Shown: piece by piece, positions 36,254 to 39,605 of the stretch | How positions within the stretch are numbered: position 1 is the stretch's first letter | How the letters are laid out: every line of letters starts with the position of its first letter | Assembly: GCF_029855045.1 (NCBI RefSeq) | Contig: NZ_CP123228.1 | Coordinates: 992,001-1,056,000 of the forward strand | Direction of reading: 5' to 3' | DNA from: Piscinibacter sp. XHJ-5 | GTDB lineage: Bacteria; Pseudomonadota; Gammaproteobacteria; Burkholderiales; Burkholderiaceae_C | DNA: 64,000 bases | Notes under the pieces: generated by a model | Told to the model about the DNA's origin: nothing | The model's database searches: none | What the model saw: only the letters and a program-made list of their open reading frames with translations | Made by a program: the position numbers and the translations under genes

Positions 36254-37156
36254 TCAGTCTGCAGCCCATCCGATCAGCGGATGCTGCTGCAGACCGCGGC
36301 ACATTCGGCCCACCCATTCCGCCGGAAGCTCCGGCGGCATTGTCGCCCTGGGCGGGCTCTCCTTGCCTTCGATCCTGCCTGCTCTTGCGAACACCGCGCT
36401 GCCGGAGCCCGTCATGCGGCTGTTGCCGAAGCGGCCCTCCAGCAGCCGGGCGGCTTGCGCCACTTCGGGACACATGGCTTCTGCGGGAGGCTGCAAATCG
36501 TTGCGACCGTATCCCTGCAAGAGGCCATCTGCGCCGACATCTGCCCAGACGTCTGCAAGAAAGCCCGCAAGTATAGCAGCTTCGGTGTTGCGCACGAGCA
36601 GCGGGCTGGTGAAGATCGACTGAGTGGCGAGGCTGGCCGCGGGCTTGACGACGGCATACCACTGCGGCGGCAGCCCGATGGGCGTGAGGCGCTCTCCGAT
36701 GCCTTCGACCCAGGCGTTGCGCCCGCCCAGAAAGAAGGGCACATCGGCGCCCAGGCTCAGACCCAGCGGCAGCAGCCGCGACAGCGGCCAGTTCAGGCCC
36801 CACAACCGATTCAGGGCGAGCAGCGTGGAAGCGGCGTCGGAGCTTCCACCGCCCATGCCGGCGCCCCATGGCACCTGCTTCTCGATGGAGATGTCGACCC
36901 CCTGCGTCGTGCCGCTTTCCGCCTGCAGCCGTCGCGCCGCGCGCAGGCACAGGTCGTCGGCGGGCAGCGCCGCGCCGAGGTCGTGACGCGCGATGGCGCC
37001 GTCGTCGCGACGCTCGAGATGCAGCGTGTCGCACCAGTCGATCAGCACGAACACCGACTGCAGGAGGTGGTAGCCGTCGGCGCGCCGTCCGATCACATGC
37101 AGGAAGAGATTGAGCTTGGCCGGCGCGGCGACGTCGTAGAGCGCGCGCAGCGTCAT
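36254..37156 (-). CDS. ispE: 4-diphosphocytidyl-2-C-methyl-D-erythritol kinase
   Basis: 300 residues, GHMP kinase of the MEP isoprenoid pathway. It phosphorylates CDP-methylerythritol. AAPAKLNLFLHVIGRRADGYHLLQSVF is the substrate-binding N-terminus. The ATP loop is VPWGAGMGGGSSDAASTLLAL, and RMTGSGSAVFARA is the third GHMP motif. The ATG overlaps the lolB stop (ATGA). Length is normal. Confidence 0.95.
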   Translation of the reverse strand: MTLRALYDVAAPAKLNLFLHVIGRRADGYHLLQSVFVLIDWCDTLHLERRDDGAIARHDLGAALPADDLCLRAARRLQAESGTTQGVDISIEKQVPWGAGMGGGSSDAASTLLALNRLWGLNWPLSRLLPLGLSLGADVPFFLGGRNAWVEGIGERLTPIGLPPQWYAVVKPAASLATQSIFTSPLLVRNTEAAILAGFLADVWADVGADGLLQGYGRNDLQPPAEAMCPEVAQAARLLEGRFGNSRMTGSGSAVFARAGRIEGKESPPRATMPPELPAEWVGRMCRGLQQHPLIGWAAD

Positions 37157-37827
37157 GACGGGTCGAGCTTGGCGCGCACGAGGACCGCGGGCGCCTGCTC
37201 GCGCTGGGCCGACACCCACCCCTCGTCGAAGCGCGCCAGGCTGACGACCCAGCCAAGCTGGCGGAAGCCACGTTCGGCCGGCGCCGCGGTCGGCGAGCTG
37301 GGCGCACCCTCCCACGCACGGCCGCGAAGCCAGTCGAACAGCGCCGCCACCGGCAGGCTCTCGCCAAGCACCTCGCGGGTCAGCTCATCGAGGTTCGTGA
37401 AGCTCCTTTCACCTTGCGATGTGACCAGCACCACTCGCCCCGGTGCCCACCGGGCCTGCGCGAGCACGGTGCCCAGCGGCGTGCTGAGGTCCAGCCTGCC
37501 CTGCAGCGGGCCTCCTTGGAGGTCGAAGACAGCGGTCACCGTGCGCGCAGCGCTTGTCGGCGTGGCGTCGACGCGCACCGTCATGCGCCCGGCCAGCATG
37601 TCGGAGGGAGCGCGGGTCGCGGGCGGCTGCGTCGTCGCGCATCCGCCCAGCAGCGCCGCGGCCAGCAGCCAAGCCTGTCCTGAGCCTAGTCGAAGGGCCT
37701 GTCCTGAGCCTAGTCGAAGGGCCTGTCCTGAGCCTGGTCGAAGGGCCTGTCCTGAGCCTGGTCGAAGGGCCTGTCCTGAGCCCAGTCGAAGGGCCTGTCC
37801 TGAGCCCAGTCGAAGGGCGCGGATCAC
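37153..37827 (-). CDS. lolB: Outer-membrane lipoprotein LolB with a repeat-expanded N-terminus
   Basis: 224 residues. LolB accepts lipoproteins from LolA and inserts them in the outer membrane. The start is GTG 37827, overlapping the upstream TPR stop (GTGA). Between the first four residues and the hydrophobic core lie six 8-residue units (LRLGSGQA or LRPGSGQA), encoded by 24-bp tandem repeats. Then comes the signal core and lipobox WLLAAALLGGC. The mature LolB domain is otherwise normal (LAGRMTVRVDATP, FDLQGGPLQGRLDLSTPLGTVLAQARW, LPVAALFDWLRGRAW). No other start codon lies between the repeats and the signal core, so the repeats appear to be translated as a long n-region. Confidence 0.88.
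   Translation of the reverse strand: MIRALRLGSGQALRLGSGQALRPGSGQALRPGSGQALRLGSGQALRLGSGQAWLLAAALLGGCATTQPPATRAPSDMLAGRMTVRVDATPTSAARTVTAVFDLQGGPLQGRLDLSTPLGTVLAQARWAPGRVVLVTSQGERSFTNLDELTREVLGESLPVAALFDWLRGRAWEGAPSSPTAAPAERGFRQLGWVVSLARFDEGWVSAQREQAPAVLVRAKLDPS
37673..37816. repeat. Six tandem 24-bp repeats inside lolB
   Basis: Six exact-length units at 37673, 37697, 37721, 37745, 37769 and 37793. They differ only at a few positions in the centre (CCTAGTCG, CCTGGTCG, CCCAGTCG, in pairs). The order of variants (two, two, two) points to stepwise duplication. Each unit contains the core CTGTCCTGAGC...GTCGAAGG, an interspersed repeat I recognise from many bacterial genomes, where translated copies look like LRSGQA or PVLSLVEG. 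Because 24 is divisible by 3, the lolB frame is kept. Confidence 0.95.
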
Positions 37828-39605
37828 AGGTCGCCGACGCGCAGGCGCGCGAGCGTTTCGCGCAGCACGTCGTTCGCCGAATCCTTGCTCCGCCCTTCGC
37901 GCCAGACGCGCTTGGCTTCTTCGCGCTGACCGCTGACCCACAGCACCTCGCCGAGGTGGGCCGCGATTTCCGGGTCGGGACGCGACTGGTACGCGCCGCG
38001 CAGCAGTCGCAGTGCCTCATCCCGGTTGCCCAGGCGGTATTCGACCCAGCCCAGGCTGTCGGTGATGAAGGGCTCGCCGGGCGCGATCTCAAGCGCTTTC
38101 TGAATCAGCGCCTTGGCTTCCGGCAGCCGCACGTTGCGCTCGGCCAGCGAGTAGCCGAGTGCGTTGTGTGCATGGTGGTGATCGGGCTTGAGCGCGATCA
38201 CTCGGCGCAGCAGGCGCTCCATCTCCTCGACGCGATTGAGCTTCTCGGCCATCATCGACTGCTCGTACAGCAGGTCGATGTCGTCCGGATACTTCTTGTT
38301 GGCGCTGGCCAGCACGAGGTTCGCCTCATTCCAGTTCTTGGTGTCGCGCAGGATCTGCACCTCGGCGAGCAGCTTGGCGCGCGCGTCTTCCTCGCCCTTC
38401 TCGGGCGAGCGCCGAATCAGCTCGCGCGCTTCACGCAGCTTGCCCTGGCGCGCCAGCAGCGACGCCCGTCGGGACAAGACTTCGAGCGCGCGCTGCGGGT
38501 TGTCGACCTTCTTCAGCCACGCTTCGGCGGCCTTGAAGTCGTTCTGCTGCTCGGCCGCCTGCGCGAGCAGCAGCCAGGCCTGAGTGAGACCGCGTTCCGG
38601 CGTGGCCGGACCCTCGTCCTCGTCGAAGGCGGCGTGCGGATCGGCGGCCGCCTTGCTACCGCCGGACTGGAGCAGGTCGACATAGCGCTCGAGCGCGGCG
38701 GTGGCCTGCTTGGGCTGGCGCAACTCCAGGTACAGCGCGCCCAGCGTGAGCCACGGCGGTGCGACCGTCGGCTGGCTGCGCGTCACCGACTCGAGCTGCG
38801 CCACGGCGTCGCCGTAGCGCTGCGAGGCAGCCAGCACGCGCGAGTAAAGCAGCCGTATCGCGTTGCTGTCGGGATTGGCCTTCAGGTTCTCGAGGACGAC
38901 CGTCTCTGCCGCCGGCGTACCCGGCAGCATCTCGAGCGCAAGCATTGCCGCACCTTCGGAGGAACTGTCCTGGGCCTGCGCGCGTTGCGCCATGTCGAGC
39001 GCCTTGCCGGTGTCGTTGGCGATGAGCCAGGCGCGGCCCAGGGCCACGTTGACCGCGGCGCGGGTGGCGGGTGCGTCGGCATAGGGCTGCAGCACCTGCG
39101 CCAGGAGCCCCGCCACTTGCTGGCGGTCCTGCACGCGGCCGAAGAACCGCGGCAGGCTCATGATCAGGTTGGCGCGCTCGGCCTCGGGCGTGAGCTGGAG
39201 CAACGAGCGCAGGGGCTCGACTGTTTCGGGCGCGCGATTCAGCGCAATCAGCAGCTGGACGAGATAGCGATGGGCATCCAGCGAGCCGGGAACCTCGCTG
39301 CGCCACTGCTGGGCCGCGGCCAGGGCCTGGTCGCCCGCGCGCGCCTGCAGGGCGATGTCGGTTGCACGGCGGAAGAGCTGCTCGTCCTTGGTTCGCACGG
39401 CGGCGTCGAGCACATCGCGGTAGGCGCTGCCGGCATCGCCAGCGCGCAGCTCGAGCTCGCCGATCAACAGTTGATAGAAGAGCTGCGCGTCGAGCTTGGA
39501 GTGGGTGGGCGCCTCGGCGTGCTGCGCGGAAGCGCCGAAGCTGAGCAACAGCGCCGACGCGGCCAGGGCCAGCGCTCGTGTGCGAAGGGGAAGACGGGCT
39601 GGCAT
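37824..39605 (-). CDS. Exported TPR-repeat protein upstream of lolB
   Basis: 593 residues. A signal peptide (ALALAASALLLSFGASAQ) is followed by tetratricopeptide repeats along nearly the whole length, clearest at the C-terminus (HHHAHNALGYSLAERNVRLPEAKALIQKALEIAPGEPFITDSLGWVEYRLGNRDEALRLL). A short acidic linker (DEDEGP) lies near residue 310. This gene is found between mutM and lolB across betaproteobacteria. It is probably periplasmic and linked to envelope assembly, but no function is proven. Its stop overlaps the lolB GTG. Confidence 0.88.
   Translation of the reverse strand: MPARLPLRTRALALAASALLLSFGASAQHAEAPTHSKLDAQLFYQLLIGELELRAGDAGSAYRDVLDAAVRTKDEQLFRRATDIALQARAGDQALAAAQQWRSEVPGSLDAHRYLVQLLIALNRAPETVEPLRSLLQLTPEAERANLIMSLPRFFGRVQDRQQVAGLLAQVLQPYADAPATRAAVNVALGRAWLIANDTGKALDMAQRAQAQDSSSEGAAMLALEMLPGTPAAETVVLENLKANPDSNAIRLLYSRVLAASQRYGDAVAQLESVTRSQPTVAPPWLTLGALYLELRQPKQATAALERYVDLLQSGGSKAAADPHAAFDEDEGPATPERGLTQAWLLLAQAAEQQNDFKAAEAWLKKVDNPQRALEVLSRRASLLARQGKLREARELIRRSPEKGEEDARAKLLAEVQILRDTKNWNEANLVLASANKKYPDDIDLLYEQSMMAEKLNRVEEMERLLRRVIALKPDHHHAHNALGYSLAERNVRLPEAKALIQKALEIAPGEPFITDSLGWVEYRLGNRDEALRLLRGAYQSRPDPEIAAHLGEVLWVSGQREEAKRVWREGRSKDSANDVLRETLARLRVGDL

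Follow-up and report, generated by a model that had tools for sequence, protein, structure and literature searches.

A 24-bp tandem array ahead of the lipobox of Piscinibacter LolB: probable in-frame insertion and multiplication of a widespread repeat

In the 64,000-nucleotide stretch of Piscinibacter sp. XHJ-5 DNA analyzed here, referred to below as the window, six exact 24-bp units are found in tandem within lolB, between the GTG start codon and the segment encoding the hydrophobic core of the signal peptide. Comparison with related sequences indicates that a unit of a widespread repeat was probably inserted into lolB, multiplied in tandem to six copies and tolerated in a leader that is expected to be cleaved off.

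The lolB gene (37153..37827 (-)) starts with GTG at 37825..37827 (-), ends with TGA and encodes 224 residues; the open reading frame becomes longer if counted from further upstream of the GTG at 37827. The start codon forms a GTGA overlap with the TGA (37824-37826) of the upstream open reading frame, which encodes a tetratricopeptide-repeat (TPR) protein (37824..39605 (-)) and is unaffected by the array because its stop precedes it. The identity of lolB given in the preliminary description is borne out by a match to the Pfam LolB family (PF03550, E 1.3e-14), of which the genome contains no other member by this search. From the GTG, the N-terminus reads MIRA, six octapeptides, WLLAAALLGG and Cys63, where the hydrophobic core with its lipobox (WLLAAALLGG-C, from Trp53 to Cys63, 37639..37671 (-)) contains LLGGC at residues 59-63, i.e., the protein combines a LolB domain with a lipoprotein motif. 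The signal peptide is shorter than the more than 70 residues proposed earlier, with 62 residues (4 + 48 + 10) before the lipid-bearing Cys, and this segment contains seven R/K and no D/E.

A search with TRF identified the 24-bp array at 37673-37818 with 6.1 copies, 97% matches and a score of 264, while the next best of the eight TRF rows in the window scored 74. The six exact units, CCCTTCGAC(NNN)GCTCAGGACAGG, occupy 144 bp (37674..37817 (-)) and encode (LRxGSGQA)x6, which confirms that six in-frame units lie between the GTG and the lipobox. In the reading order of lolB the variable triplets are TGG TGG CAG CAG TAG TAG, with the peptides LRLGSGQA x2, LRPGSGQA x2 and LRLGSGQA x2, and only columns 10 and 11 of the 24 vary. 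The variants thus occur in adjacent pairs also at the DNA level, a pattern that is predicted by the stepwise duplication suggested previously. A unit with the TAG triplet has stops in two of the six frames; the frame used in lolB provides one arginine and no acidic residue per unit.

The source genome (G000) is a single 6.65-Mb contig. The search returned four further genomes of the genus (G001, G002, G003 and G004), and in all of them the GTGA stop/start overlap is kept and the array is absent, such that a short signal peptide with its core follows directly after the junction without repeats. Among the best 120 of 809 LolB matches, which include the window's own protein as predicted from Met77, none has LRxxSG within the first 40 residues, and a Cys is found at residues 9-30 where it could be located (114/120); the top-ranking homologue shares 86% identity with the query across 78% of its length. 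Because the four congeners and the best 120 matches are without the array, the array can be read as a clean insertion that added 144 bp in frame.

The exact form of the unit, CTTCGACNNGGCTCAGGAC, has six matches in the genome, all at lolB. A looser family, TTCGACN{1,4}GCTCAGG, has 51 matches in G000 including the six lolB units, compared to five for the backwards control. Hence, the earlier statement that the unit belongs to an interspersed repeat of many genomes holds for the looser family, which is also widespread, but not for the exact form, which in this genome is confined to lolB. The commonest dispersed form, CCTTCGACAAGCTCAGGGCGAACGG, accounts for 27 of 44 fetched copies, and elsewhere the looser motif is found 90 times in G003, 64 times in G033, 33 times in G009 and not at all in G002. 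Closely spaced inverted pairs are present among the dispersed copies in G000 (1187411-/1187474+ and 4369442+/4369492-), and five such pairs, 42-45 bp apart, are listed for G003; many dispersed copies are unpaired, and the lolB array is head-to-tail. Some dispersed copies are themselves parts of larger tandem units, i.e., six copies at 150-bp spacing (G000:C1:4277198-4277962) and three at 96-bp spacing (G000:C1:1573822-1574028), and a single copy of the TTCGAC family (L176, G000:C1:4325049) resides in an open frame with Lhr-helicase domains, between two winged-helix domains.

Outside this genome, a two-unit pattern with a free triplet was found in 53 stretches of genome contigs from many phyla, which according to the record titles include Methylomirabilota, Chloroflexi, Nitrospira, KSB1, Acidobacteria, Actinomycetota and Proteobacteria, and both isolates (e.g., Rehaibacterium and Algoriphagus) and MAGs. 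A viral origin of the unit was considered and rejected, as the two-unit pattern had no matches in viral contigs. The pattern fixed the unit flanks in this set, so that only the triplet can be judged; 26 kinds of triplet occur, and both members have the same triplet in 46 of 78 pairs of adjacent units, where 2000 shuffles gave a mean of 5.7 and a maximum of 13. Such sharing is what tandem duplication predicts. In 17 of the 53 stretches, which are two-unit elements (Methyloversatilis and Methylocaldum; among L080-L126), neighboring triplets always differ (0/17 alike), and simple duplication is therefore not the explanation of all arrays. Of the copies listed for a Nitrospira genome (G068), 54 have a spacer of three bases, which is TTC, TAC or TCC in 39 of them and thus, on the opposite strand, GNA flanked by C and G; triloops of the GNA type are stable in DNA.

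The location of these arrays relative to genes varies. A scan of 29 spanning ORFs, picked by length and derived from 24 of the 53 stretches, gave a Pfam match in at least one ORF for 18 of the 24. In several of these, the array lies within a conserved domain or is flanked by matched segments, for example in UvrC (L128), a metallophosphatase (L093), an AMP-binding enzyme (L086), PEP carboxylase (L110) and TilS (L114), and may lie upstream of the true start in other scanned stretches. When residues 1-64 of LolB were used as a query, 37 proteins were obtained at E up to 1, with LRxxSGQ in 35 of them and varied Pfam domains.

Another lipoprotein that carries the unit at this kind of site is BamB of Gallionellales (L098/L186), where three units in the LRxGSGQA frame directly precede LLMALLALGGC (Cys57). 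The bamB ATG overlaps the upstream stop, and a second in-frame ATG just before the core would leave only MALLALGGC. The closest homologue of this protein (P0158) is 95% identical and one unit shorter (411 vs 419 aa). Among the best 120 of 1,933 BamB homologues, the position of the Cys peaks at residues 18 (22 proteins), 26 (14) and 34 (13), i.e., in steps of one unit. The Cys was not located in seven of these sequences and is found before residue 16 in 18, which probably have truncated starts; one class modulo 8 holds 49 of the 95 with the Cys at residue 16 or later, where the sequences are related and hence not independent. LRxxSG is found within the first 62 residues in 21 of these 120 and after that in none. 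Within one clade, the BamB relatives harbor from zero to three units, and by eye the units of many relatives look degenerate.

Repeat DNA at this site was also seen in other genomes. In bamB of G325 (L188), a degenerate DNA unit is located by eye at the n-region site, and in bamB of G402 (L215) a GTAG-type inverted pair is placed in frame in the signal n-region; this pair has ten exact copies in G402 and none in G000, G033 or G060. In lolB of G033, a genome of the window's family (L187:2725-3450), the frame that opens at the GTGA overlap passes through a repeat of the WIPACAGMT type and reaches a Cys at position 92. The 25-base core of this repeat has nine copies in G033, two of them at lolB, and four in G060. 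There are in-frame ATGs within the G033 array, one of which directly precedes the core, so that the start is uncertain and the n-region of this LolB is repeat-bearing only if the upstream start is used. Altogether 98 loci were looked at, of which 88 were read to the Cys by eye, i.e., 60 of 70 BamB loci and 28 LolB loci other than that of the window (from a set of 30 that included the latter and one locus truncated at the end of its contig); repeat DNA is found in the n-region in three of the 88 (L021, L188 and L215), where the search for BamB loci started from a protein that carries the repeat and L188 is the closest match by score. Forty of these BamB loci, added to extend the set, showed no new n-region repeat, and 10 of the 40 could not be read to the lipid-bearing Cys.

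In the probable course of events, a unit of the interspersed repeat would have been inserted after codon 4 of lolB, ahead of the hydrophobic core, and would have been multiplied to six copies by tandem duplication, through slippage or unequal exchange. The array would survive because the 24-bp unit keeps the frame, because the LRxGSGQA frame is free of stops and acidic residues and adds one arginine per unit, yielding a longer positively charged n-region, and because signal peptidase II is expected to cleave off the whole segment, which would leave mature LolB unchanged. An n-region needs positive charge and little else, so that an in-frame, acid-free and arginine-bearing repeat would probably do no damage in this position and could go on to multiply in tandem. 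We infer translation from the GTG, export, cleavage, neutrality and the mechanism of duplication from the sequence. The presence of repeats at a similar place in a few other genomes suggests that signal leaders tolerate repeat DNA.

A broader and tentative interpretation is that the n-regions of LolB and BamB may constitute a recurrent safe harbor for several unrelated repeat families, where the 24-bp unit gives rise to eight-residue steps in length and where, in some lineages, the number of steps may be selected as a setting of the export rate. The three of 88 loci read, besides the cases that started the search, are anecdotal in this respect. The natural series of 0, 1, 2 and 3 units in BamB and 6 in LolB offers a way to ask how long and how charged the n-region of a lipoprotein may be, and the findings hint at where repeats that would otherwise be disruptive can persist in outer-membrane biogenesis genes. 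The lolB case also illustrates that gene callers can lose a lipoprotein signal, as the window's LolB is stored without one, as 148 residues, in the protein database searched.

In the preliminary description, it was proposed that the copy number could tune export or translation of LolB. In this scenario, the number of copies would be a selected setting, where either the n-region, through its length and charge, or the RNA that follows the start codon would adjust export or translation of LolB, and slippage would supply the variants. Such a role is unlikely. It would be consistent with a unit that keeps the frame, with the range of zero to three units in one BamB clade and with the one-unit difference between near relatives there. 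However, folding of the array RNA is no better than that of shuffled sequences (z 0.84, with 151 of 200 being at least equally stable), which offers no support for tuning and led to rejection of the array RNA as a translation switch; the units in many BamB relatives look degenerate by eye, as neutral remnants would, and the array is absent from the other returned congeners.

A start after the array, which would turn the repeats into an untranslated leader, is quite improbable. The reading frame contains neither ATG nor GTG nor TTG from codon 2 up to the lipid-bearing Cys, which leaves the non-standard CTG codons as candidates, i.e., two inside the array (codons 7 and 15), which would leave most of it translated, and four after it (54, 55, 59 and 60). 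The next ATG, Met77, is located beyond the lipid-bearing Cys, and it is this codon that was chosen by the gene caller in the database entry for the window's LolB (P0002, 148 aa, region 37153-37599), perhaps because the array confuses gene calling. In favor of a late start, a 2013 study of REPs warns in its account of N-terminal elements that many of these may be extragenic (PMC3733652). Against it, the four returned congeners retain the GTG and its overlap with the upstream stop, a protein starting at Met77 would not be anchored, and a start at a CTG after the array would give an n-region without any positively charged side chain.

An assembly error as the source of the array or of its copy number is highly improbable, because the genome is one contig, 144 bp is within the span of ordinary reads, three variants in ordered pairs do not constitute a simple misjoin, and arrays of this type of unit are found in isolate-titled records and MAGs alike. 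Tandem repeats as such are error-prone in assemblies, as noted in the relevant part of PMC6868369. That the insertion cripples a lolB gene that is being lost is scarcely credible, given that the frame, the lipobox and the domain are intact in the sole PF03550 match of the genome and the best homologue is closely similar, even if lolB can be dispensable, as illustrated by a viable Xanthomonas transposon mutant (PMC8739992). The earlier statement that LolB is essential in most Gram-negative bacteria was too strong in view of this mutant and of a review (PMC11784454) which, in the sections concerned, restricts LolB to beta- and gammaproteobacteria and describes deletion of lolB as lethal in wild-type E. 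coli.

In the open-licence literature, the DNA of the 24-bp unit or its peptides were not found, where a 12-base string occurred only in two unrelated papers, and no description was found of repeat arrays in the signal n-regions of lipoproteins. Insertion of REPs in genes is known, while a recurrent lipoprotein n-region site was not found described in the same literature. According to the sections of PMC3733652 that concern these elements, REPs are short and interspersed, often occur as dimers or groups and can be read through in frame as part of unrelated proteins; some of the intragenic REPs are located at the N-terminus, and clusters encoding 43-82 residues are reported. The lolB repeat resembles these GTAG/CGTC-tagged intragenic REPs in being short, grouped, in frame and N-terminal, and the looser family is, like REPs, interspersed (51 vs 5) and includes inverted pairs among its dispersed copies. 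In contrast to REPs, the dispersed copies of the TTCGAC family, including CCTTCGACAAGCTCAGGGCGAACGG, carry, as judged by eye, neither GTAG nor CGTC as an end tag, and in lolB the 24-bp units are arranged head-to-tail, with apparently low folding potential. Folding of single units is weak for two 27-mers of the dispersed form (z -0.74 and -0.70) and gives z 0.20 to 1.38 for three lolB units. RAYT-type transposases (PF01797) have no matches in G000; nine matches were found in seven of 12 genomes, and the motif is present in none of the nine fetched loci of ~3.3 kb. TTCGAC and GTCGAA are absent from the main text of PMC3733652. Since two of the REP properties tested, the tag and the link to RAYT, are lacking, the lolB repeat is referred to as REP-like rather than as a REP.

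Similarities are found also with other systems. RPEs of Rickettsia, which are ~150 bp, enter coding genes in frame and are translated, as described in the pertinent part of PMC10969869; the lolB unit is likewise short, located in a gene and in frame, but unlike RPEs it is a 24-bp tandem that is spread over many phyla. PARCELs are tandem protein-coding repeats shared by distant microbes, in some cases in surface lipoproteins, as outlined in parts of PMC2996958. Their repeats are amphipathic and 25 residues long, compared to the eight-residue units of LolB, and the sections of that paper on the repeats do not describe placement in signal n-regions. In coding minisatellites and contingency loci that remain in frame, the length of the unit is divisible by three. 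In this property of unit length, which is the one they share, the lolB array resembles contingency loci, as its copy number can change without a frameshift.
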